NCBI GenBank assembly: GCA_009777915.1 | Contig: WRKV01000005.1 | Span: forward strand, 1 to 45,807 | DNA from: Bacteroidales bacterium | GTDB taxonomy: Bacteria > Bacteroidota > Bacteroidia > Bacteroidales > P3 | Length of the DNA: 45,807 nt | Direction of reading: 5' to 3' | Shown here: piece by piece, positions 1 to 43,678 of the stretch | How the letters are laid out: every line of letters starts with the position of its first letter | How positions within the stretch are numbered: the stretch's first letter is position 1 | Translations under genes and position numbers: made by a program | Notes under the pieces: model-generated | The model's database searches: none | What the model saw: the letters and a program-made list of their open reading frames with translations, nothing else | What the model was told of the DNA's origin: nothing

Positions 1-3000
1 GCAACAACCACCGACACTCTCAGAGCAAATATGCCGGCAGTAGAAGACCTCGAATTTTCCTGCACCTACACCCTCGACGGTTGTAGCGTTACGGCAACAG
101 CCCAAATCGAAAACTCACAATGTACACCACCAACCATGCCGGGAGGATTCACAGCAGACCTCGCGGCAATTTGCTTAGGCGATTCAACCATACTCCGCCT
201 TAGCAGTGGAGTACGAAACCAAGGAGAATGGGTGCTATACGCAGGAGGATGCGGAGACGGAACTCCGATCGCAAGATCCCACGAGAACCTTATAGGGAAC
301 GTAACTTTTACCGTAAAACCTACCCAAACCACAGAGTATTTTATTAGAGGCGAAGGCTGCGGAACAAACACCAGCTGCCAACAACTGACCATAACCGTGA
401 ACCCGTTGCCCAACGTGATTCAAGGTGAGAACGAGGTATGTGTCGGTGCCACCGCTACCGTTATCAACCTAACTCCGGGTGGAACATGGGAAGTAGGCGT
501 TTCAGGACATCTCGCCGTAGACGATCCGGCAGTGGGAACCGTCAGAGGTGTGATGGCAGGAACCGGTACTATATATTATGTACTCCCAACAGGATGCCGC
601 CGCGAAGGACAAATTACCGTGAAAGAGACGCCCGCAGCTATCGTTGGCGATACCAACCTTTGTGTGGGTAGCACCAGAATTTTTACATCTGCAACCCCTG
701 ACGGCATTTGGACTTCATCAGCATCACTTGTGGCAAGCCTAACCTCGCACACATCGGGAGAACTCACCGCAAACACCATCGGCACCACTGAGCTACGCTA
801 TACCCACTCGCTAACCGGTTGCGATATCATGAAAACCGTCAGAGTATGGCAGCAACCCATCAGCACAACAGGCGACCGCTCGGTATGCCGTGGGGAATCC
901 ATTCAACTCACCAACAACACAGTGCCAACAGGCGATGACGTCGGCGTATGGTCGATACAGTCAGGTGGTTCAGCAGCAACCATTTCAGCAACAGGCTTGC
1001 TAACCGCAAACTCCGGAACCAGCTCTGCAACGGTCATCGTGCAATACACCCTCGGACATTGCAGCGATACGTTCCGCGTTGATGTCAGACAGTTGCCGAA
1101 CCCTATCACAGGACCGACAACCCTCTGCGAGGAACAGGTGCAAACCTACACCAACACCGGAACATCAGGAACCTGGTCATCATCGAACACGGCAATCGCA
1201 ACCGTGAATGCCACTTCAGGTGAACTTACCGCTGTGTCAGCCGGAACGTTTGACCTGATCTTTACCTCGCCGTACGGATGTACCACACAATTAGCTATCA
1301 CCGTCAACCCATTGCCCGCCCCCATTGATGGTCCCAACGCTGTGGGCGTAGGCGGAACCATAACTCTCTCAACCACATCAACTGCCGGAGTATGGTCGTC
1401 GCTCAACCCAACCATCGCCTCAGTAGGTGCTTCCAACGGAGTGGTAACCGGTCTATCACAGGGAACGGCAGAAATCAGATATATGTACCCAACAACAGGT
1501 TGCTACAGAATCCACGAAGTTACCGTAAGTTCGTGTGATGTGATCACCTTGACCTCCGCAGCAGGCACTAATATACAAAATAATATCTGTAACGGATCAC
1601 CGATGACCTCCATCATCTACGAACTTAGCAACGGAGTTGCTACGACAACCCAAATTGCATGGTATAGAGACGACGGTACGCCCATGATCAGTCCGCCAAT
1701 GCCGGCAGGCATAAGCTACAACGGTACCACACACACCATCTCAGGATCGCCCACAGCGGTAGGCACATTTGAATACGTCATCACATCGACAGACCACGGA
1801 CCCGGCTGCGACCCTGTTACGGCAAGCGGTGAGATAACCGTGCACCCGCCTGTGTTAGCAGGAACTATTGCAGCAAGCCATAGCATTTGCGACGGAGATG
1901 ACCCGGAAGCGTTCACATCAACAGCAGCAGGCAGTGGAGGATCCCCAACATCCGAATACAGATGGCAGTTTTCGAACAACCAAACCGATTGGTTCGACCG
2001 ATCAGGAAGCAACTCAGTAACCTTCGACGATGCAACCACCCTCAACGTGGTTGATGGTAACCCTACACCATATTATTATAGGAGAGCATTCATAAACAGT
2101 TGCTCAACGGCTTACTCTAACATCTTGACGGTTACTGTGAACCCGGCTCCCGCAATACCTACAGCCGATGTTACACCCAACTCGGCGTGCTCGGGAGATC
2201 CCAACGGTATCATAGAAATCACAGCTCCAACAGGATCAGGCTATACCTATGCTATCGCCGGTAGTGATGGCGTTAGGAGTGCATTCCAAACTTCGCCTAT
2301 ATTCAATGGCAGAAGTTCGAGTGCCTATACTGTAACCGTGAGAAACATCCATGGTTGCGAAAGCACCCAAAGTTTCACCGTGGGCAGCAGTTCCGGTGCA
2401 CCGGTGATCACAGGTTTTAACGTTACACCTAACGACAGTATATGCAGCTCGGCATTGGCAACCACAACCGTAACCCTCACACCGCAATTCGACAAGGACG
2501 GCGGCGTTACATACTCCTATCTTTGGAATACAGGTGACGGCACCTCAACCATTGGAACCGCCGAAACCCTAACCAGAATCGGAGGAACCATCTCAGAAAC
2601 AACAACCTACCAAGTAACCGTGACCAACACGACTAACGGCTGTGATGCCAAAGGTAGTACAATCATCCACGTGATAGATCCGATTACCATCTCCGGTATC
2701 ACCGTATCGAAAGATACCATCTGTATCAACCAAACTGCACCTACTATTACGGTAACACCAAGCACATTGACAGGAGTAACCTACCAATGGCAAAGCTCGA
2801 CAACCGGAATCGGTGGCTACACCAATATCGCGGACAATGCGACAGCACAAATCTATACCGTGCCAAACGCCGCTGTGTCCGACTTGTGGTACAGATGTAT
2901 CGTTACCACCACTGCCGGCATTTGCCCATCGGTAACAAGCGATTCCGTACATGTGGGAGTGTTACCTATACCGGGTTTGCCAACAGTTACAGAGAACCCT

Positions 3001-6000
3001 GTACACGTTTGTGCTATAACAGGAACAGCTGACTTGGTGGCAACCACCAACGAGGCAGGATGCTGCATTCGTTGGTACGACAACAATGGCTTGCTTCAAG
3101 CCCAAACGAACTCCGGCGAAACGTTTACAACAGCCACATTCAGTGCTCCGAACTCGGTAACCTACCGTGCATACGCCGATAACGGAACCTGCTATTCGGC
3201 AGATTTTGTGGAGGTAGTAGCAACCATGCACCTGCCGCATATCCTCACACACGCAAGCGGAGATACAAACCTCGCTACGGCTTGTATTAACCAACCTTTT
3301 AGCGAAATCCACTACAACATCGGTGGAGGTGCTGCAAGTGCATCCATCGCTTGGACACCCCAAGGAACTACCACCGGACAACCAACAGGCATGAACCTCG
3401 AGGTGAACGGACAAGATGTTATCATAAAAGGTACACCTACCGTTGCCGGAACATGGAATTTCGAAATTACAACAACTCCATTTTCAGGAAACGAATGCCC
3501 AGTATTGAAACTAACCGGCAGACTAACCGTGTATCCAACCCCTGCTACACCTACGGCAAACATAACGCCTAACTCAGCTTGTGCAGGTGGTGCACCTGAC
3601 GGTAAAATTACCATCACAGCACCTTTGGGTACAGGCTTTGAATACTCTATCAACGGTGGTACAACATGGCAAACCACGCTCGAATTCGCAGGGCTGAACA
3701 CTGCCGACTACACCGTGATCGCCAAAAACCCGGAAGGTTGCCAAAGTAGTGCAACGTTCTCCGTACCGGGAAGTTCCGGTACTCCGGTTATCACAGGCAT
3801 CAGTATCGTAACAAACCCAACCGTTAACCCTGCCAACAACCTTTGCAGATCCGTGTTAAGCACCACAGAAGTAACCCTGACCCCACAATTCAACAAAGGT
3901 ACAGGCAACTACACCTATGTATGGTCTCCGGGAAGTGCTACCACAGAAGCACTCGTCTTACCCGTGAATAGCATCACAGGAACTACAACCTACACTGTAA
4001 CCATCACCAATACGGATAATCTCTGCTCAAGCAACAAAGACACCACCATTCAGGTGACAGAGCCTATTACAGCCAGCATTGCCACAACAACGCCGGAAAT
4101 CTGCGTTGGTGGAACAGCTCCGGTGATCAACCTAACGGCAAGCACCTCCACAGGAGTTAGCTATCTGTGGCAACGCACGACAAGCGACACCGAACTCGAA
4201 ACCGGCTCGTACCAAAACGTTGGCGGAGACGCAACCACCCAAAACTACACTGTGCCTAACACCCCGGCATCAGACCGTTGGTATCGTTGCACCATCACCA
4301 CAACCGACGGCATCTGTCCGCCGGTGGTGACGAATGCTGTGCAGGTGAAAGTGGTTGCCGCACCGGCTCAGCCCGTTAGAGATGACGGCTCCATCACTGC
4401 ACTTTGTCGCAATGAATCACATGCCTTTGAGGTTCAAGCAGTTACAGGTGTAACCTTTAACTGGACAGCACCGGCAAATTGGACAGCAACAACCGGAACA
4501 GGTACAAGCTTTACAACCGCTCCCGGAACAGGTGCTGCGAGTGGCAATATCGTTGTAACACCGACCAATTCCACCGGATGTACAGGAACTCCGCTAACCA
4601 TATTTGTGACGGTTAACGAACTCCCCGCTATACCTAATCGTACCGATGGATCCCCCAGTGCACTTTGTCGCGGTACAACACATACTTTTGCCGTGAGCTC
4701 CGTTTCGAATGTGAGTTTCGCATGGACGGCTCCGGACAACAACTGGACGCCTGAAACATTCTCAGGATTGGGTTTCCAAACTACACCCGGAACAGGTGCT
4801 ACCAGCGGCAATATCACCGTGACACCAACCAATACAACCACCAACTGTGTAGGACCGGCACTCAACATAGCCATTACCGTTAACGACATTCCTTCTATGC
4901 CTGTTCGCAACGATGGCACCATCAGTGCACTTTGCCCCGGTATAGCACATACCTTTAGTGTGACTACGGAATCAGGCGTAGGCTACGCATGGACGGCTCC
5001 GACAGGCTGGACATTAACCACCGGCGGACCGGCTGCAAATTTCTCAACCGCTCCCGGATCGAGTGCCGTAGCAGGCAATATCACCGTTACGCCGTCGTAT
5101 AGCAACGGCTGCGAAGGACCAAAACTCGAATTCGCCATAGGCATTCACACACCTCCGGCTATCCCGGTTCGCACCGGAACCACCGATGTAATTATTTGTC
5201 GCAACCTTCCGCACACTTTCAGCGTGATTCAAGAAACAGGCGTAACATACGAATGGATAGCACCGGATGCTAACTGGACGCCGTATTCAGTATCTACAGT
5301 AACGTTCTCAACCACACCGGGAGCAACGGCAGACAACGGCAATGTTACTGTTACCCCAACTTCCGCAGAAGGTTGTGTTGGAAGCCCGCTCGAAATACCG
5401 ATAACCATCGCTGCACCTCTCACTTTCACCATCCACCCCGACAACCACGATCTGGTTGTGCCCGTAGGTGTGGATTTCTGCCCCGATACCCTCTTTGTAG
5501 CCGCAACAGCAGGCATATTGCCAATAACCTTCGAATGGTACTTCACAGATGCCAATAACTATACCTCCAACGTAACAGCATTCACAACCGGAGTACAGTC
5601 TACACAGACCACTTCGAAAATTACCATTCCTAACAATGTGTTGGGCGAAAGATACTACCACGTGAAAGCAAGCAACGCCTGCCAATCCAACGTGCAGTCG
5701 AATATCAGCGGACTTAGAGAAGTGGCAGAGGATAAACTGCCCGCAAGCGAATGCAATTTCATTTCAGGTACAGACAATGCTAACATCGTGACGGCTGAAT
5801 TCGCCACCGGTACGCCAACTACCATTCCGGCTCGTGGAAACATAGCAGCACAAATCTGGTCGGATTTTGTAATCTCGCCACAATGCAACAAAACAAGCTA
5901 TAATGGTGGATCAGCACCTACCTTTAATGTGGATTGCAAAAGAAATGAGACACTTACCACTTTCCCAGGAGATTATTTCTCGTGGTGTGCGGTGATGAAA

Positions 6001-6378
6001 TATGCCCATATCCTTTGTCCTGCACCTTGGCGCGTGCCAAGCAAACAAGACTTTATCCACCTCGATATCCTTTTGGGTGGACAAGGTGTACAAGATAGTC
6101 GCAATCCATCTGATCAGGTGATCAGCGGACAAGCCTACACGAGTGGTTCAAATAATAACAACAACTCTGGCACCCACAATCCTCGTGGCGGAAGTTGGCA
6201 AGGTTCTCGATTTACAGCCAATGCGTCGGTGCTCACGGTGGCAAATTCAAACTACTGGTCGTCGACCGACGGTAATACACAAGGAGCATACACCCTGTAT
6301 TACGGAGGGAACCTCATCAGTCCGCAACCAACCAGCAATAAAGGCAGCGGTTTTGCCGTGCGTTGTGTGAAGGATTAA
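1..6378 (+). CDS. Giant secreted/surface protein with many Ig-like repeats and a C-terminal FISUMP (Fib_succ_major) domain; 5' end outside window
   Basis: Frame 1 is open from base 1 (ATTDTLRANM...). Repeated Ig-like modules, then C-terminal YFSWCAVMKYAHILCPAPWRVPSKQDFIHLDILLGG...NYWSST...GSGFAVRCVKD typical of FISUMP. Confidence 0.85.
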   Translation, partial: ATTTDTLRANMPAVEDLEFSCTYTLDGCSVTATAQIENSQCTPPTMPGGFTADLAAICLGDSTILRLSSGVRNQGEWVLYAGGCGDGTPIARSHENLIGNVTFTVKPTQTTEYFIRGEGCGTNTSCQQLTITVNPLPNVIQGENEVCVGATATVINLTPGGTWEVGVSGHLAVDDPAVGTVRGVMAGTGTIYYVLPTGCRREGQITVKETPAAIVGDTNLCVGSTRIFTSATPDGIWTSSASLVASLTSHTSGELTANTIGTTELRYTHSLTGCDIMKTVRVWQQPISTTGDRSVCRGESIQLTNNTVPTGDDVGVWSIQSGGSAATISATGLLTANSGTSSATVIVQYTLGHCSDTFRVDVRQLPNPITGPTTLCEEQVQTYTNTGTSGTWSSSNTAIATVNATSGELTAVSAGTFDLIFTSPYGCTTQLAITVNPLPAPIDGPNAVGVGGTITLSTTSTAGVWSSLNPTIASVGASNGVVTGLSQGTAEIRYMYPTTGCYRIHEVTVSSCDVITLTSAAGTNIQNNICNGSPMTSIIYELSNGVATTTQIAWYRDDGTPMISPPMPAGISYNGTTHTISGSPTAVGTFEYVITSTDHGPGCDPVTASGEITVHPPVLAGTIAASHSICDGDDPEAFTSTAAGSGGSPTSEYRWQFSNNQTDWFDRSGSNSVTFDDATTLNVVDGNPTPYYYRRAFINSCSTAYSNILTVTVNPAPAIPTADVTPNSACSGDPNGIIEITAPTGSGYTYAIAGSDGVRSAFQTSPIFNGRSSSAYTVTVRNIHGCESTQSFTVGSSSGAPVITGFNVTPNDSICSSALATTTVTLTPQFDKDGGVTYSYLWNTGDGTSTIGTAETLTRIGGTISETTTYQVTVTNTTNGCDAKGSTIIHVIDPITISGITVSKDTICINQTAPTITVTPSTLTGVTYQWQSSTTGIGGYTNIADNATAQIYTVPNAAVSDLWYRCIVTTTAGICPSVTSDSVHVGVLPIPGLPTVTENPVHVCAITGTADLVATTNEAGCCIRWYDNNGLLQAQTNSGETFTTATFSAPNSVTYRAYADNGTCYSADFVEVVATMHLPHILTHASGDTNLATACINQPFSEIHYNIGGGAASASIAWTPQGTTTGQPTGMNLEVNGQDVIIKGTPTVAGTWNFEITTTPFSGNECPVLKLTGRLTVYPTPATPTANITPNSACAGGAPDGKITITAPLGTGFEYSINGGTTWQTTLEFAGLNTADYTVIAKNPEGCQSSATFSVPGSSGTPVITGISIVTNPTVNPANNLCRSVLSTTEVTLTPQFNKGTGNYTYVWSPGSATTEALVLPVNSITGTTTYTVTITNTDNLCSSNKDTTIQVTEPITASIATTTPEICVGGTAPVINLTASTSTGVSYLWQRTTSDTELETGSYQNVGGDATTQNYTVPNTPASDRWYRCTITTTDGICPPVVTNAVQVKVVAAPAQPVRDDGSITALCRNESHAFEVQAVTGVTFNWTAPANWTATTGTGTSFTTAPGTGAASGNIVVTPTNSTGCTGTPLTIFVTVNELPAIPNRTDGSPSALCRGTTHTFAVSSVSNVSFAWTAPDNNWTPETFSGLGFQTTPGTGATSGNITVTPTNTTTNCVGPALNIAITVNDIPSMPVRNDGTISALCPGIAHTFSVTTESGVGYAWTAPTGWTLTTGGPAANFSTAPGSSAVAGNITVTPSYSNGCEGPKLEFAIGIHTPPAIPVRTGTTDVIICRNLPHTFSVIQETGVTYEWIAPDANWTPYSVSTVTFSTTPGATADNGNVTVTPTSAEGCVGSPLEIPITIAAPLTFTIHPDNHDLVVPVGVDFCPDTLFVAATAGILPITFEWYFTDANNYTSNVTAFTTGVQSTQTTSKITIPNNVLGERYYHVKASNACQSNVQSNISGLREVAEDKLPASECNFISGTDNANIVTAEFATGTPTTIPARGNIAAQIWSDFVISPQCNKTSYNGGSAPTFNVDCKRNETLTTFPGDYFSWCAVMKYAHILCPAPWRVPSKQDFIHLDILLGGQGVQDSRNPSDQVISGQAYTSGSNNNNNSGTHNPRGGSWQGSRFTANASVLTVANSNYWSSTDGNTQGAYTLYYGGNLISPQPTSNKGSGFAVRCVKD

Positions 6379-27941: not shown

Positions 27942-28077
27942 GTGTTAATCAAGATGCAAAGATACGGAAATTTTTTGGAATATGCAAGTCATTTTTGACG
28001 CTGCATCCGTCACGTCGAGCGGCGCCACGCAGTGGCGAAGTCGAGACATCTCCCGGCTATTGACCGTTCCCGAATTT

Positions 28078-28105
28078 GTAGGGGCGACGCATGCGTCGCC
28101 CCTAC
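28078..28105. repeat. 28-bp perfect palindrome
   Basis: gtaggggcgacgca/tgcgtcgcccctac. Confidence 0.95.
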
Positions 28106-28125
28106 GGCGATTGTCGCGAATGTCC

Positions 28126-29212: not shown

Positions 29213-29364
29213 TAAAAAAAAGCGGACCTACTATCCGCCACTAAGGTTTACCACAACCCGCATACAGAAACAAATAAGCCCGCATCTTGCGAACGTTTAG
29301 TTATTATTCTGTATGCCTAAAAGTGGTAATTTTAGTGGCAAGAATAGCAAACGCTATATTTTAC
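29213..29364 (-). ncRNA. Structured 5' leader with terminator-like hairpin upstream of FISUMP-A (copy A)
   Basis: Nested stems CCACTAA/TTAGTGG, TTACCAC/GTGGTAA, GCATACAGAA/TTCTGTATGC; hairpins ATAGC-GTTT-GCTAT and GCGGA-N7-TCCGC-T8. Confidence 0.7.
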
Positions 29365-29412: not shown

Positions 29413-29421
29413 GCAAAGATA
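29413..29421 (-). promoter_or_regulatory. -7 promoter element of the copy A leader (TATCTTTGC)
   Basis: Reverse complement of gcaaagata, ~49 nt upstream of the structured element. Confidence 0.65.
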
Positions 29422-29808: not shown

Positions 29809-32049
29809 ATGTTAGTTCATCAAAAAACATTCTTACTTCCCGATGGTCGCGAAGTAATGATCGAAACCGGAAAATTGGCGAAACAAGCCGACGGTTCAGT
29901 AGTTGTAAGAGTTGGTAACACGATGTTGTTGGCAACCGTAGTCAGTAAAAAAGAGGCAGGCGAAAATGTAGATTTCATGCCACTTACAGTAGATTATCAA
30001 GAAAAATATGCATCGGCAGGACGTTTCCCCGGCGGTTTTTTCAAACGGGAAGCTCGTCCTTCGGAATACGAAATTTTGATTTCGAGATTAATTGACAGAG
30101 CACTCCGTCCGTTGTTTCCAAGCGATTATCACGCAGAAACGCAAGTGTTAGTGTATTTGATTTCAGGCGACAGAAATGTGTTGCCCGACGCTTATGCAGC
30201 ATTGGCGGCATCGTCAGCATTGGCAGTGTCGGATATTCCGTTCAACGGGCCAATCTCGGAATGTCGTGTAGCACGCATCAATGGCGAGTTTGTGGTTAAT
30301 CCAACGGTTGAACAAATGGAAAACGCCGACCTGGATTTGATTGTTGCCGCTTCCGAAAAAGACATCAACATGGTGGAAGGCTCCATGAAAGAAGTGTCGG
30401 AAGACGTCATGGTTGAGGCTCTCAAAGTGGCTCACGAAACGATCAAAGTACAATGTCGTGCACAACGCGAATTGGCGGAAATGGTTGGCAAAACACAAAA
30501 ACGCGAATATTGTCATGAAACTCACGACTCGGATTTGAAGAAAAAAGTATGGGATTTTTGTTATCAAAAATACTACGATGCTGCCAACGAACGTATCGCC
30601 AATAAAGCGATTCGCGGAGAAAAAGTTAAAGAAATTCAAGAACAATTTTTAGCTACCATTTCGGAAGAAGAAGCGGCAGAAAAGAAATTTATGTTGAACA
30701 TTTATTTCCACGATTGTCACAAAGAAGCGGTTCGAAATATGGTTTTGGACACCAAGTTTCGCTTAGACGGACGCCAAACAGACGAGATTCGTCCGATTTG
30801 GTCGGAAGTGGATTATCTGCCATCGGCTCACGGTTCGGCAGTGTTCACGCGTGGCGAAACGCAGTCGTTAACGACCGTAACGTTGGGTACCAAATTAGAC
30901 GAGCAAACGATTGATGGTGCGATTATCGAAGGCAAAAACAGATTCTTGTTACACTATAATTTTCCGCCGTTCTCAACAGGCGAAGCAAAACCTAATCGCG
31001 GAACCGGTCGAAGAGAAGTCGGACACGGAAACTTGGCAATGCGTGCCTTGAAACCGATGTTGCCGTTGGGCGAAAATGATGATTTTCCATACACGATTCG
31101 CATCGTTTCCGATATTTTGGAATCCAACGGATCGTCCTCAATGGCAACGGTTTGTGCAGGTTCGCTTGCATTGATGGATGCCGGTGTGAAAATCAAACGT
31201 CCGGTTACAGGTATTGCCATGGGCTTGATTTCTGACGAAAAAAATCCAAACAGATTCGCTGTATTATCAGATATTTTGGGAGATGAAGACCATTTGGGAG
31301 ATATGGATTTCAAAGTGTGTGGAACACGCAACGGAATCACCGCTTGTCAAATGGATATCAAAGTGGACGGACTCTCGTACGACGTGTTGGCACAAGCCCT
31401 CATGCAAGCGAACGCAGGACGTATGCACATTATGAACGAAATCGAAAAAACGATTGCCGAACCAAGAGAAGATTATCGTCCGTTTGTTCCGAGAATTGTT
31501 CAAATTACGATTCCGAAAGAATTTATCGGAGCCGTGATTGGTACGGGTGGCAAAGTGATTCAAGAACTCCAACGCGAAACAGGTACGGAGATTGCCATCG
31601 AAGAAGTTGGCGAATTCGGTATCATTGATATCGCTTCTCCGGATAAAGATTCGATTGAAGCTGCAATCGCTAAAATCAAGGCTATTATTGAAGTTCCGGA
31701 AGTCGGATCGGTATATCAAGGTATTGTAAAAACCCTTCAACCGTTTGGTGCTTTCGTTGAAATTTTACCCGGAAAAGATGCGTTGTTGCACATTTCCGAA
31801 ATTGCTTGGAAACGCATCGAAACTATGGAAGAAACCGGTATCAAAGAAGGCGATTCTATCGAAGTGAAATTGTTAGATATCGACAAAAGAACCGGAAAAC
31901 TAAAACTTTCTCACCGAGTTTTGTTGCCGAAACCTGAGGGTTATGTCGAGCCGGAACGCAGAGAACGTCCGCCTCGCAGAGATGGCAACCGTCGTCCGCC
32001 GAGAAGAGATTTCAATCCGGGTCGTCCGCAAAGAAGAACCGAGGAATAA
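29809..32049 (+). CDS. pnp: Polyribonucleotide nucleotidyltransferase
   Basis: [27 protein letters not shown]...KH and S1 domains; follows rpsO. Confidence 0.97.
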
Positions 32050-32051
32050 TG

Positions 32052-32088
32052 AAAAAAAAACGAAACGCAAGCCGTTTCGTTTTTTTTT
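32052..32088. terminator. pnp terminator hairpin
   Basis: aaaaaaaaacgaaacg-caagc-cgtttcgttttttttt. Confidence 0.8.
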
Positions 32089-32144
32089 ATTTGGTCAATT
32101 CAAAAAAAAATTGTACCTTTGCGAAAACCAAAATCACTAATGAC

Positions 32145-36391: not shown

Positions 36392-37303
36392 TTACTTGAC
36401 ACACCGTAGCACGTACCCGCTACCTTTGCTGCCCCAATTCTGTGGGTAGATGTAGCCACCTGTATTAAAACTCAAGAGGAACCCGAGAGCCGTACTACTC
36501 TCCGACTGCGACCAGTAGATTCCAAAGAAACCTTGATTGAGCAACGAGCCGTCCGAGTAGCAGCTACCTCCGTAGGCACCACCCCAAATAGTGAGATATG
36601 TGTTGAGTTGAACCTGCCAAGACGTATCCTTAACCGTTTCTTGATAACGATTCTGACCGTTAAAATCTAAAGCAATATCCAAATCTATAAAATCTTGTGA
36701 AGTAGGAACTCGCCAGCCATCAGGACAAATTTCTGCGACTTCTTTTACTGCACGCCAAGAAAATAAATCGCCTTTTTGACCCGGATTGGAACGACAATCA
36801 ATGTTGAAACCACTTGTTGAGTTACCACCACTGAAAGTAGTTTTGCTACTGCAATCAACCGTCTGAACAGCATCCGACCACTCTTGCGTAATACTATTTC
36901 CGGAAATTTTCCAAGTGAAATCGGTGGCAAAAGAGGCTTTACCAAGAGATGTTTCCCAAGTGGTTTTACTTACGGTTACAACGCAAGTAGCAGTTTTTTC
37001 ACCGTCTTGCGTGGTAACGATAATGGTTGCATTTCCGGCACTCACCGCAGTAACTAAACCATTTGAATCGACTGTTGCTACGACTGTATCACTACTACTC
37101 CATGTTACCGTTTTGTTGATTGCATTGTTGGGCAACACAGTAGCAATAAGCATAAGCGTGTCATCAACGTTAAAGATGGTAGCGATCTGGTTTAGCGTTA
37201 CGCTTTCAACAGCGGTTGATTCGGTTTCTCGTTGGGGCTCTTTGTCACAAGAAATTGCAAATGCAAACGATAAAATCATCACAGAATAAAGAAGGTTTTT
37301 CAT
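36392..37303 (-). CDS. Lipoprotein with BIG2 Ig-like domain and C-terminal FISUMP domain (FISUMP-C)
   Basis: FAISCDKEPQ lipobox-like; VTLNQIATIFNVDDTLMLIATVLPNNAINKTVTWSSSDTVVATVDSNGLVTAVSAGNATI; C-terminal YWSQSES...GSGYVLRCVK. Confidence 0.85.
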   Translation of the reverse strand: MKNLLYSVMILSFAFAISCDKEPQRETESTAVESVTLNQIATIFNVDDTLMLIATVLPNNAINKTVTWSSSDTVVATVDSNGLVTAVSAGNATIIVTTQDGEKTATCVVTVSKTTWETSLGKASFATDFTWKISGNSITQEWSDAVQTVDCSSKTTFSGGNSTSGFNIDCRSNPGQKGDLFSWRAVKEVAEICPDGWRVPTSQDFIDLDIALDFNGQNRYQETVKDTSWQVQLNTYLTIWGGAYGGSCYSDGSLLNQGFFGIYWSQSESSTALGFLLSFNTGGYIYPQNWGSKGSGYVLRCVK

Positions 37304-37326
37304 ATGGCAATTTTAATGGTTTTTTT

Positions 37327-37374
37327 GCAAAGATACGAAAAAAAAATGAAATGCAAAGCATTTCATTTTTTTTT
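37327..37374 (-). promoter_or_regulatory. Hairpin plus -7 promoter composite upstream of FISUMP-C
   Basis: gcaaagatacgaaaaaaaaatgaaatgc-aaa-gcatttcattttttttt. Confidence 0.7.
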
Positions 37375-37465
37375 ATTTACTATTTACCATTTACTATTTG
37401 GCGAAGCGTAAATTGTACATTTGTAAATCGTACATTGGAACCACTATTCACTAATCACTATTCAC

Positions 37466-37493
37466 TCTTGGGTGACGCATGCCTCGCCCCTAC
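37466..37493. repeat. Degenerate 28-bp palindromic repeat
   Basis: tcttgggtgacgcatgcctcgcccctac. Confidence 0.5.
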
Positions 37494-37527
37494 TATTCAC
37501 TAATCACTAATCACTATTCACTAATTT

Positions 37528-38565: not shown

Positions 38566-39957
38566 CTATGGCACATCCCGCACACAACGCAGAGCGAACC
38601 CTCCGCTCTTAGCAAGGCTGTTATGAGGGCCGACGTAGGACGCAGTCAGGCTCAGACGGAAGCCATACGTAGCACTGCTCTCTGACGAGGACCAGTAGCG
38701 CGAAGTCGCATCCGTGAGATCGCCCTGACTTGCAGTAAAGCGGGAGCCACCCCAGGTTCCGCCGTTGTTGGTTGCGGGATTGCCCGAACCGGTGTCCCCG
38801 ATATACCAAGCAACCTGAGCTTCTATCGTCTTATCATTACTTGGCACCGAGGCAGGGTCAGCATTGCCCGTACCGTCTGCCCAACGGTTATGTCCCGTGC
38901 CCCCCAAAGCCACATCTAAATTGACAAAATCCTGGCAGGTAGGTACACGCCAATCACCTGGACAGAGTTGGCCTTGATAACGAATCATGAAACAGAAATT
39001 GAAGTAATCCCCATCAAAACCATTAGTGGCATTGCGACAATCGGTTGTGATACCATTCATAGTGAATGTTGATCGAGAGTTACACGTGACAGTGCTCACA
39101 GACCCCGACCATCGCTGCGTAATCCCATTGCCGGAAATTGTGCGAGCATGTGTTTCTATATTGGGAGATCCGCCCCAACTAACAGCACCGATGTCAGGGA
39201 CATAATTTTCCCCTGCACATAGCGACAAGTCGCCTGGTGTACCAGGACAAGCGGGAACAACAATATGCTTGCCGCTCGTGTTGCTTGTAGTTGCCGTGCT
39301 CCCACAACGGTCGGTAGCCACGGCGTAGTAGTAGATGCCGTCAGTGTTTACTGTATTTGCAGGCGGTGTAAAAGTGTTGGTTTGTGCACCGTTGACAGTG
39401 CCCATGCTTATGCCGCCTGTGGTGCTTGCTGAGGTGTTCGAATACCATTGTATGGTAATCGGTGGCATGCTGCCTGCGGGTTCGGCTGTAAGAGTGAGTG
39501 GTGCGAATGCCGTGCCTATGGTGGTATAGCGTTCGCCGGTTGGTGTGACCGTGCCAATGGTGGGCGGTTCAGCATTAAGGGTAATGCTACCATGTAGCAG
39601 CTCCACGCCGCAAGTATTGCTTACCGTGTAGTGGTGCGTGCCTGCAACCGTTGGTGCTCCTTTAATAGAAACAGGCCATGCGTATTCTCGGTCGCCGAGC
39701 GGATTTGAGGCATCGCCGGAAACCGTAATGCCGGGAGGAGGAGTGGGCCTAAAGTTGGTGCGTGTCTCGTTCGTCCACCAGGTGACGATCAAGGTTTTAG
39801 CTATTACCGATGGAAATTCAATAGTTTCTATCGTGTCGCCGGGACAAAGAGTTTGATGCAAGGGTGCTGATGGACACCACTGCGGGATTGGACAATGAGC
39901 AAAACTTTTGGTTGCAAAAGCTGCGATAAAGATTAAGATTAGGGTGATTTTTTTCAT
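38566..39957 (-). CDS. Secreted FISUMP-domain protein (FISUMP-B), paralog of 28169-29176 with an extra Ig-like module
   Basis: MKKITLILIFIAAFATKSFAHCPIPQWCPSAPLHQTLCPG...RYWSSSESSATYGFRLSL...GGFALRCVRDVP. Confidence 0.85.
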   Translation of the reverse strand: MKKITLILIFIAAFATKSFAHCPIPQWCPSAPLHQTLCPGDTIETIEFPSVIAKTLIVTWWTNETRTNFRPTPPPGITVSGDASNPLGDREYAWPVSIKGAPTVAGTHHYTVSNTCGVELLHGSITLNAEPPTIGTVTPTGERYTTIGTAFAPLTLTAEPAGSMPPITIQWYSNTSASTTGGISMGTVNGAQTNTFTPPANTVNTDGIYYYAVATDRCGSTATTSNTSGKHIVVPACPGTPGDLSLCAGENYVPDIGAVSWGGSPNIETHARTISGNGITQRWSGSVSTVTCNSRSTFTMNGITTDCRNATNGFDGDYFNFCFMIRYQGQLCPGDWRVPTCQDFVNLDVALGGTGHNRWADGTGNADPASVPSNDKTIEAQVAWYIGDTGSGNPATNNGGTWGGSRFTASQGDLTDATSRYWSSSESSATYGFRLSLTASYVGPHNSLAKSGGFALRCVRDVP

Positions 39958-39980: not shown

Positions 39981-40134
39981 TAAAAAAAACGGACTTACAG
40001 ATCCGTTATCGAGGTCGTGAGAACTACCCATGTACAAGAACAAGCAAGCCCGCACCGCAGGCGTTACATTCTCTTGTACACTCAGAAGTTTCTCACGTTT
40101 CGATAACAAGAATTTAGCAACCGCTATATTTTAT
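39981..40134 (-). ncRNA. Structured 5' leader with terminator-like hairpin upstream of FISUMP-B (copy B)
   Basis: Nested stems GTTATCGA/TCGATAAC, CGTGAGAA/TTCTCACG, TGTACAAGA/TCTTGTACA; hairpins TAGC-GGTT-GCTA and ACGGA-N8-TCCGT-T8; conserved GCGGGCTT loop. Confidence 0.7.
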
Positions 40135-40174
40135 GTTTTCGTTTATTTACATATTTTTTAATTAAAATTAGACT

Positions 40175-40222
40175 GCAAAGATACGAAAAAAAAATGAAAT
40201 GCAAAACATTTCGTTTTTTTTT
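40175..40222 (-). promoter_or_regulatory. Hairpin plus -7 promoter composite upstream of leader copy B
   Basis: gcaaagatacgaaaaaaaaatgaaatgcaaaacatttcgttttttttt. Confidence 0.65.
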
Positions 40223-40224
40223 CT

Positions 40225-40252
40225 GTAGAGACGTGGCATGCGTCGCCCCTAC
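40225..40252. repeat. Degenerate 28-bp palindromic repeat
   Basis: gtagagacgtggcatgcgtcgcccctac. Confidence 0.55.
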
Positions 40253-40256
40253 GGAT

Positions 40257-41087: not shown

Positions 41088-41180
41088 ATATAACGCTCGA
41101 CCCCCCGATTTTCGTATAAAAAATTTCTTAAAAAGTGTTAAAATGTTGATAACTTCCGCAAATTGTTAATAAACCCACGA
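41088..41180 (-). repeat. Right (inverted) copy of the 93-bp element, upstream of rhuM
   Basis: About 90% identical to 37528-37620 in reverse complement. Confidence 0.9.
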
Positions 41181-41227
41181 AAAAAAAACGAAACGCTATG
41201 CATTTCGTTTTTTTTTCGTATCTTTGC
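41179..41227 (+). promoter_or_regulatory. Hairpin plus -7 promoter composite upstream of fic
   Basis: gaaaaaaaaacgaaacgctatgcatttcgtttttttttcgtatctttgc. Confidence 0.7.
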
Positions 41228-42413: not shown

Positions 42414-42503
42414 AAAAAGTATTAAGAAAATGATAGCAAGGGGATGTCTCGACTTCGCCACTTCGTGGCTCCGCTCGACATGACGGCGAAAAAAATTGTA
42501 AAC

Positions 42504-42550
42504 AAAAAAAACGAAATACACCGCATTTCGTTTTTTTTTCGTATCTTTGC
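42504..42550 (+). promoter_or_regulatory. Hairpin plus -7 promoter composite for ispG
   Basis: aaaaaaaacgaaatacaccgcatttcgtttttttttcgtatctttgc; ATG follows 3 nt later. Confidence 0.7.
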
Positions 42551-42553
42551 AAA

Positions 42554-43678
42554 ATGTATCACCCGCGAACGTTACATATCGGTGCTTTAACCATGGGAGG
42601 CGATGCTCCTGTGCGAATCCAGTCGATGACCAACACCGACACGATGGATACGTTTGCTACTGTCGAACAGTGCAAACGCTTGGCAGACGAGGGTTGTGAG
42701 ATGGTGCGAATCACTGCACAAAATGTGAAAGAGGCAGAAAATTTGGCAAATATCAAATCGTCGTTAATTCAGCAAAGATACGATATTCCATTAGTGGCGG
42801 ATATTCATTTTCAACCCAAAGCTGCGGAAATTGCTGCAAAAATTGTTGAAAAAATCCGAATCAATCCGGGAAATTATGTTCCCACATTGGATCATGATAG
42901 TCCTGTAGAGGCGAGGCATACAGCGTTTCGACAAGAAATTATCGACAAGATTTCCCCCTTGTTAGAAATTTGTAAAACACACCAAACCGTGATTCGCGTA
43001 GGCGTTAATCATGGTTCGCTGTCAAAACGAATTTTGGAAAAATTCGGAAACACACCGCAAGGTATGGTCGAATCGGCAATGGAATTTGTACAGATTATTC
43101 ACAGTTTGAACTTTGAGAATTTGGTGCTTTCGATGAAAGCGAGTCGTGTGAAAACGATGGTGGGAGCAACGCGTTTATTGGTGTCTCGATTGCAAGCGGA
43201 ACATTTGGATTATCCCATTCACTTGGGCGTTACAGAAGCCGGCGATGGTGAAGACGGACGGATAAAATCCGCTATCGGCATCGGAAGTTTGTTACTTGAT
43301 GGAATCGGAAATACCATTCGTGTTTCGTTGACCGAAAAACCTGAAAACGAAATTTCTGTTGCTAAAGCAATTTTGCAATCGTGCGGAAACCGTGTGTTTA
43401 CGGCTGAATACATCGCCTGTCCGACTTGCGGACGCACGCAGTACGACGTGGAATCTGTGTTAAAAGAAATAAAACTTCGTACCAAACATCTCAAAGGATT
43501 GAAAATTGCAGTCATGGGTTGTATCGTGAATGGTCCCGGCGAAATGGCTGATGCCGATTTTGGATACGTGGGTGCAGGTAACGGGAAAGTTACGATTTAC
43601 AAGGGAAATGACCCTGTTCGAAAAAATATAGATGAAAAAATTGCTGTGGATGTTTTGATGGAAGTAATGGAAAATTGA
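42554..43678 (+). CDS. ispG: 4-hydroxy-3-methylbut-2-en-1-yl diphosphate synthase (short form)
   Basis: GGDAPVRIQSMTNTDTMD...VADIHFQPKAA...GVTEAGDGEDGRIKSAIGIG...MGCIVNGPGEMADADFGYVGAG. Confidence 0.95.
   Translation: MYHPRTLHIGALTMGGDAPVRIQSMTNTDTMDTFATVEQCKRLADEGCEMVRITAQNVKEAENLANIKSSLIQQRYDIPLVADIHFQPKAAEIAAKIVEKIRINPGNYVPTLDHDSPVEARHTAFRQEIIDKISPLLEICKTHQTVIRVGVNHGSLSKRILEKFGNTPQGMVESAMEFVQIIHSLNFENLVLSMKASRVKTMVGATRLLVSRLQAEHLDYPIHLGVTEAGDGEDGRIKSAIGIGSLLLDGIGNTIRVSLTEKPENEISVAKAILQSCGNRVFTAEYIACPTCGRTQYDVESVLKEIKLRTKHLKGLKIAVMGCIVNGPGEMADADFGYVGAGNGKVTIYKGNDPVRKNIDEKIAVDVLMEVMEN

Follow-up and report, generated by a model that had tools for sequence, protein, structure and literature searches.

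A structured leader RNA of FISUMP genes with two competing folds, a probable transcription attenuator of a multicopy RNA family in Bacteroidota

In the copy control of plasmids, the RNA pairs CopA/CopT and RNAI/RNAII carry hairpins with complementary loops of ~7 nt, which first kiss and then proceed to a full duplex. The tetQ leader of CTnDOT reportedly involves a short peptide. Within Bacteroides, tetQ is listed as attenuator-controlled (PMC5418344), and FopS is a multicopy family of 14 small RNAs (sRNAs); FopS and GibS, by their description, act in trans and have a conserved seed that is single-stranded (PMC11697453). Uncharacterised Bacteroidota RNAs are also listed in PMC8040213 and PMC9723704.

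The window analyzed here is a stretch of 45,807 nt from a Bacteroidales genome. It contains two copies of a structured leader RNA, called B and A, each upstream of a gene whose protein carries the Fib_succ_major domain (Table 1). An earlier, sequence-only reading had described the sequence and position of copy B and the existence of copy A, all of which we found as given, together with the promoter motif ~40 nt upstream of copy B. It had also proposed a small hairpin, three nested stems and a terminator hairpin with U8, and these appear in the predicted fold of copy B. This fold reaches -60.5 kcal/mol, compared to -35.8 ± 3.7 kcal/mol for shuffled sequences (z -6.7); for copy A the value is -58.8 kcal/mol (z -6.3 vs shuffles). 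The 3′ strand of the terminator is complementary to the local ACGGA and also to the apical GCGGGCTT. Downstream, the FISUMP-B start codon at 39957 follows ~24 nt past the U-tract.

Table 1 Features of the two leader RNA copies and their surroundings in the window.
Feature	Position	Strand	Basis
Promoter -7 motif TATCTTTGC, copy B; Bacteroidota TAnnTTTG type	40175..40183	-	read in sequence
Mini-ORF of copy B, ATG-TAA (start-stop)	40147..40152	-	
Structured leader RNA, copy B	39981..40134	-	fold, BLASTN, covariance model match of 121 bits
Segment 1 TAGCGGTTGCTAAATTCTTG, strand of local hairpin; partner in the alternative fold is segment 2	40107..40126	-	own-vs-swapped z
P1 5′ strand GTTATCGA; partner 40005-40012	40100..40107	-	
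HPa GAAACGTGAGAAACTTC, small hairpin; loop is the P2 5′ strand	40085..40101	-	
P2 5′ strand CGTGAGAA; partner 40016-40023	40090..40097	-	
P3 5′ strand TGTACAAGA; partner TCTTGTACA inside 40031-40040	40072..40080	-	
Segment 2 ACAAGAGAATGTAACGCC; partner is segment 1 or segment 3	40060..40077	-	
Segment 3 GCGGGCTTGC, P5/P4 3′ strand; partner is segment 2 in the rod, segment 4 in the terminator	40044..40053	-	
HPb GGGTAGTTCTCACGACC, small hairpin; loop is the P2 3′ strand	40013..40029	-	GGU:ACC covariation
P1 3′ strand TCGATAAC; last bases shared with the local terminator stem	40005..40012	-	column 148
Segment 4 GTAAGTCCGT, terminator 3′ strand	39989..39998	-	3:4 z -15.3
U-tract (T8), copy B	39982..39989	-	
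FISUMP-B gene, 463 aa, signal peptide, Fib_succ_major PF09603	38566..39957	-	
Promoter motif TATCTTTGC, copy A	29413..29421	-	
Mini-ORF of copy A, ATG-AAA-TAA	29377..29385	-	
Structured leader RNA, copy A	29213..29364	-	covariance model match of 133.6 bits
FISUMP-A gene, 335 aa, PF09603	28169..29176	-	

Searching the host genome by BLASTN with copy B yielded 30 other approximately full-length copies, 69–80% identical. A covariance-model search, which had been proposed along with the sequence-only reading, was performed with a model built from 31 copies and detected 48 class-1 copies (147–166 nt) and 22 longer class-2 copies (169–196 nt); a broader model lifted the total to 72. The same genome of 2.3 Mb contains 79 FISUMP matches, ~60 of them above the Pfam cut-off. 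Further FISUMP-domain proteins in the window (36392-37303 and 1-6378) are encoded without this leader RNA, and elsewhere contig C3 holds a 3157-aa frame with several FISUMP domains.

The five helices P1–P5, which form a long rod, covary strongly. Covariation had been suggested from the comparison of copies A and B, and it extends to the family. In a structure-blind MAFFT alignment of the 31 copies, 92.4% of the cells pair and the score is 0.428 compared to 0.193 ± 0.008 for shuffles (0/500). An arm fits its own partner better than the arm of every other copy in 29 of the 31 copies, with a mean of -31.7 kcal/mol for own and -15.6 kcal/mol for swapped arms. In a further alignment (A4), 95.8% of the cells of the rod helices are paired, and the score is 0.735 versus 0.199.

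The rod is not the only predicted fold. The blocks TTCTTG, GCGGGCTT and AAAATATAGCG..TTGCTA had been taken as conserved and unpaired or in loops; they are conserved but not simply unpaired, as they represent strands of alternative helices. We compared the duplex energies of segment pairs within their own and in swapped molecules. For the whole segments of 101 members, the z values were -16.7 for 1:2, -14.6 for 2:3 and -15.3 for 3:4, while the combinations 1:3, 2:4 and 1:4 were at chance. With relatives of >75% identity excluded and permutation restricted to groups, the three pairings still scored -12.3, -10.6 and -11.0, respectively. A separately found set (A5; 60 non-redundant members), for which P2 was the sole selection criterion, gave -13.9, -9.5 and -7.6. 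At the level of sub-segments, the within-group z values were -7.6 for X:Y5, -10.8 for J:K, -10.8 for Y3:Z and -12.3 for P5; W:Z, the local terminator stem, was weaker yet real (-6.0), and the remaining combinations stayed within ~2.5. Even in the A4 alignment, whose model held the rod only, the pair counts were in agreement, with a score of 0.244 versus 0.180 for 1:2 and 3:4 together. Folded in isolation, the 5′ halves adopted 1:2 in 86/86 and 58/60 members and the 3′ halves adopted 3:4 in 84/86 and 55/60 members.

One pairing that is striking by eye, between the 5′ end and the U-tract (segments 1:4, GACATATAAAAAGCG with CGCTTTTTTTATGTC), was rejected as a general match in composition, since swapped molecules paired as well as own ones (z values of 0.6 to 1.6). 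Because 1:4 lacks covariation, 3:4 is no by-product of the rod plus 1:2. In class-1 copies, the terminator is extended by the short local stem ACGGA/TCCGT, and a base of its outermost pair is shared with P1: column 148 of the MAFFT alignment pairs with column 31 (P1) and with column 167 (terminator), the latter pair being AU in 24, GC in 4 and GU in 3 cases.

Judged by this covariation, both competing folds are under selection, and two independent covarying folds rule out a simple structured terminator. Segment 3 pairs specifically with both segment 2 and segment 4, which makes it an antiterminator strand shared with the terminator. The topology is that of an attenuator, in which 1:2 together with 3:4 gives the terminator and the rod P1–P5, containing 2:3, the antiterminator. 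A run of at least five T is present in 95 of the 101 aligned members; U-tracts are weak or interrupted in some members, and 17 of 85 in A5 have no T5. That the two folds control termination is inferred from the attenuator topology, the U-tract and where the element lies. The rod is ~15–18 kcal/mol more stable than two separate hairpins. Since it is favored at equilibrium, control would fall during transcription, and switching would be kinetic or assisted.

Looking at the center of the rod, helix P2 is 7 bp long in the models. Near-invariant bases flank it, namely AA and UU at its 5′ strand and GG(U) and (A)CC at its 3′ strand, and on either strand the two flanks are complementary to each other, as GAAA/UUUC in the small hairpin HPa and as GGU/ACC in HPb. 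Thus, P2 can be read as a loop-loop kiss between HPa, which sits inside the 1:2 loop, and HPb, which sits inside the 3:4 loop, and both stems are predicted to form simultaneously with the kiss. For HPb, the GGU:ACC stem varies as UA in 82, CG in 10, UG in 4 and AU in 1 case, and one basal GC to AU change was found (L071). The HPa stem is almost invariant and its covariation is therefore thin.

Positions A48, A49, G180, G182, C200 and C201 are 98–100% conserved and lie between covarying helices. Such a core, next to an expression platform with a terminator, could belong to a small-molecule riboswitch, as a special case of the attenuator in which a metabolite bound around P2 decides between rod and terminator. 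However, the near-invariant positions are largely accounted for by the pairing of the HPa and HPb stems, no common pathway connects the downstream genes (FISUMP, SusC, RteC, ECF sigma, response regulator, RibD/DHFR, subtilase), and there are up to ~72 copies per genome, a number that to our knowledge is unusual for a metabolite riboswitch. We consider a riboswitch rather unlikely.

The position of the leader is constant. A same-strand ORF starts within 150 nt downstream in 63 of the 64 testable host copies, at a median gap of 43 nt; on the other side, a divergent ORF is found in 26 of 69. Of the proteins encoded by those 63 genes, 60 look signal-peptide-bearing and 45 possess a FISUMP-type N-terminus. 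Lipoproteins and unrelated exported proteins are among the others, so that no single gene family has the leader to itself. The TAnnTTTG motif occurs within 130 nt upstream in 58 of 69 host copies, with 5.4 expected, and in 86 of 110 copies phylum-wide; it is absent from the 15 longer gaps between the leader and a SusC-type gene.

A promoter and a terminator of its own, the many paralogs and the precedent of the 14-member FopS family in Bacteroides (PMC11697453) would also be compatible with free-standing, trans-acting sRNAs of ~170 nt, similar to FopS or GibS, whose gene neighborhood is incidental. This reading appears improbable, because 63 of the 64 testable copies directly precede a same-strand start codon, the median gap is too short for a promoter and the 15 longer gaps lack the motif. 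Moreover, no conserved single-stranded seed was seen, and the conserved blocks pair internally. From the attenuator, riboswitch and ncRNA options of the sequence-only reading, the location of the leader between a promoter and a gene, with a terminator, matches the attenuator, and the evidence speaks for a cis-acting conditional terminator rather than a free-standing sRNA.

Upstream of the leader, a minimal ORF (ATG, 0–2 codons, stop) is present in 53 of 69 host copies (shuffles 13, maximum 22) and in 18 of 32 relatives (shuffles 6.9, maximum 17). In Bacteroidales, this mini-ORF (ATG-AAA-TAA or ATG-TAA, ATGAAAAAATAA) is kept ~25–45 nt before the element. These frequencies, together with the listing of tetQ in Bacteroides as attenuator-controlled (PMC5418344), would fit a leader-peptide attenuator, in which ribosomes on AUG-NNN-UAA before segment 1 decide on 1:2 and the leader reads the translation status as in tetQ. 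Phylum-wide, however, the minimal ORF is absent or close to chance (6/29 vs 5.2 and 23/85 vs 15.2), which argues against a general mechanism, and a ribosome at the stop codon would presumably barely reach segment 1. We regard this variant as unlikely.

Two further repeats were noted. An inverted repeat (A-run CGAAATGC..GCATTTCG T-run) occurs five times in the window (32040-32093, 37326-37379, 40174-40227, 41168-41221 and 42491-42544); its copies mostly adjoin the TATCTTTGC motif, the copy B promoter being one such case, and it is possibly a combined terminator/promoter element. A dispersed palindrome, TGTAGGGGCGACGCATGCGTCGCCCCTACGG, is located at 28077-28107, 37465-37495, 40224-40254 and 42904-42934 in the window and, in other parts of the genome, also precedes several leader copies.

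To describe the distribution beyond the host, searches R1 and R2 gave matches in 37 of 61 relatives and in at least 31 of 248 genomes of the phylum (11 candidates scored per genome), respectively. With full scoring, single genomes contained 25, 19 and 18 copies and Flavobacteriia-like genomes 1–5; three genomes of the same order had no copy among 150 scored candidates each. A DNA pattern based on P2 matched at least 119 loci in named genomes plus 8 viral contigs, and R2 confirmed 84 of the 88 loci fetched from these matches. Carriers include Flavobacterium, Chryseobacterium, Elizabethkingia, Maribacter, Mucilaginibacter, Pedobacter, Bacteroides and Parabacteroides. Genes downstream of these copies encode SusC/RagA receptors, RteC, ECF sigma factors, a response-regulator-like protein, RibD/DHFR, a T9SS subtilase and lipoproteins.

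At individual loci, the element precedes genes for RteC (L195, L217) and for ECF sigma factors or short response-regulator-like proteins (L224, L250, L207, L232, L178, L181, L205, L223), with a Pfam check for one ECF sigma factor and one response-regulator-like protein among them. At L173, L221 and L231 it precedes a RibD/DHFR-type gene (Pfam check for L221 only). Locus L173 also holds the rteR sRNA, placing the element there inside a CTnDOT-like conjugative transposon. The eight IMG/VR viral contigs are L297, L298, L299, L300, L301, L302, L303 and L304; R2 confirmed six of them (not L298 and L299), and the gene that follows in L297 and L300 codes for a protein with a signal peptide. One aberrant copy, L102, has an expanded first segment (AACGAACAAGCACTTACGTTTTT...) and is possibly a rearranged or decaying member.

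Numerous dispersed copies, their occurrence on viral contigs and their proximity to the conjugative-transposon genes RteC and RibD/DHFR might suggest a mobile repeat, a miniature transposon or recombination site that came to lie in leaders by chance. But the copies are 69–80% identical with compensatory changes instead of near-identical, their orientation and site between promoter and start codon are fixed, and the fully counted Flavobacteriia-like genomes have only 1–5 of them, making this explanation highly improbable. A diversity-generating retroelement template or retron RNA, prompted by the fact that FISUMP proteins can be variable, was dropped, as the element is a many-copy leader. An integron attC-like site was dropped as well, given the fixed order of promoter, element and gene.

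The sequence-only reading had recognized no known riboswitch class, and the leader has no match in Rfam 15: none of its 4227 families reached the gathering threshold on any member tested. In E-value mode, tRNA and rteR, both unrelated, were alone in passing their thresholds in the element regions, and permissive scans of these regions returned low-scoring chance matches only. A riboswitch of a known class was rejected on these grounds. Literature searches yielded no description of such a leader motif in Bacteroidota; the uncharacterized RNAs listed in PMC8040213 and PMC9723704 may include an earlier prediction without a name. Attenuators are a known kind of element, whereas this RNA family, its abundance and the exchange from two hairpins to a rod are undescribed as far as the available libraries show.

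Based on these comparisons of sequence and predicted structure, the leader is likely a cis-acting, bistable transcription attenuator, one of ~72 in the host genome and part of an undescribed, Bacteroidota-wide RNA family. Judging from the motif, transcription would start at the TAnnTTTG promoter just upstream. The emerging 5′ half would fold alone into hairpin A (segments 1:2) with HPa at its tip, and the 3′ half alone would form hairpin B (segments 3:4) with HPb at its tip, ending in the U-tract and acting as an intrinsic terminator that keeps the gene off. If the two halves join, the 7-bp loop-loop helix P2 would form first and P1 and P3 would then zip up into the long rod. In the rod, segment 2 would pair with segment 3 (P4/P5), withdrawing it from segment 4 and allowing read-through, with the gene on. 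Pairing 2:3 would exclude 3:4, and 1:2 would exclude 2:3.

The balance between the folds could be tipped by a protein or small molecule bound to the near-invariant core of GAAA/ACC and AnUUU/GGU, by translation of the conserved mini-ORF, or by a further RNA that kisses the loops of P2. The functionally mixed downstream genes suggest no single ligand. In a more far-reaching version, to which we give tentative credence, the family would be a new class of gene-control RNA found across Bacteroidota: neighboring hairpins of one transcript, complementary in their loops, would kiss and swap strands, a CopA/CopT reaction in cis, thereby converting terminator into antiterminator in response to a common signal and setting dozens of surface-protein genes per genome simultaneously.

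Given ~72 structured leaders in a genome of 2.3 Mb and a range of relatives that extends from Flavobacterium to Bacteroides, one would expect to find the family in Rfam. It probably represents an undescribed switch that turns many genes on or off together. If the leaders act as read-through switches, they would constitute a general RNA layer over SusC/RagA outer-membrane receptors, FISUMP paralogs, sigma factors and regulators of conjugative transposons, in a phylum that ranks among the main ones of gut, soil and sea. Both folds are specified well enough for the design of compensatory mutants.

Compared to known systems, the leader resembles Flavo-1 (RF01705) and other Rfam Bacteroidota motifs in being a structured RNA widespread in Flavobacteriaceae, but Flavo-1 did not reach its gathering score on any member tested and was absent from the permissive scans. 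With FopS/GibS it shares the multicopy nature, the occurrence in Bacteroidota and links to surface-protein genes such as SusC; it is set apart from FopS, by the description of the latter, in being internally paired throughout. The tetQ leader of CTnDOT is likewise a Bacteroides leader with attenuation but, compared by description, is reported to act on translation. The trp-type attenuators are similar in their four consecutive segments with 1:2, 2:3 and 3:4 pairing, the U-tract after 3:4, the location in a leader and, for the Bacteroidales copies, a short ORF upstream. In contrast to them, the long P1–P3 and a 7-bp loop-loop contact join the hairpins here, the mini-ORF has no run of regulatory codons and is missing in flavobacterial copies, and the genes are non-biosynthetic. 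As in CopA/CopT and RNAI/RNAII, two hairpins with complementary loops of ~7 nt are able to kiss and zip up; here, however, both reside in one molecule, and the proposed outcome is antitermination of the same transcript.
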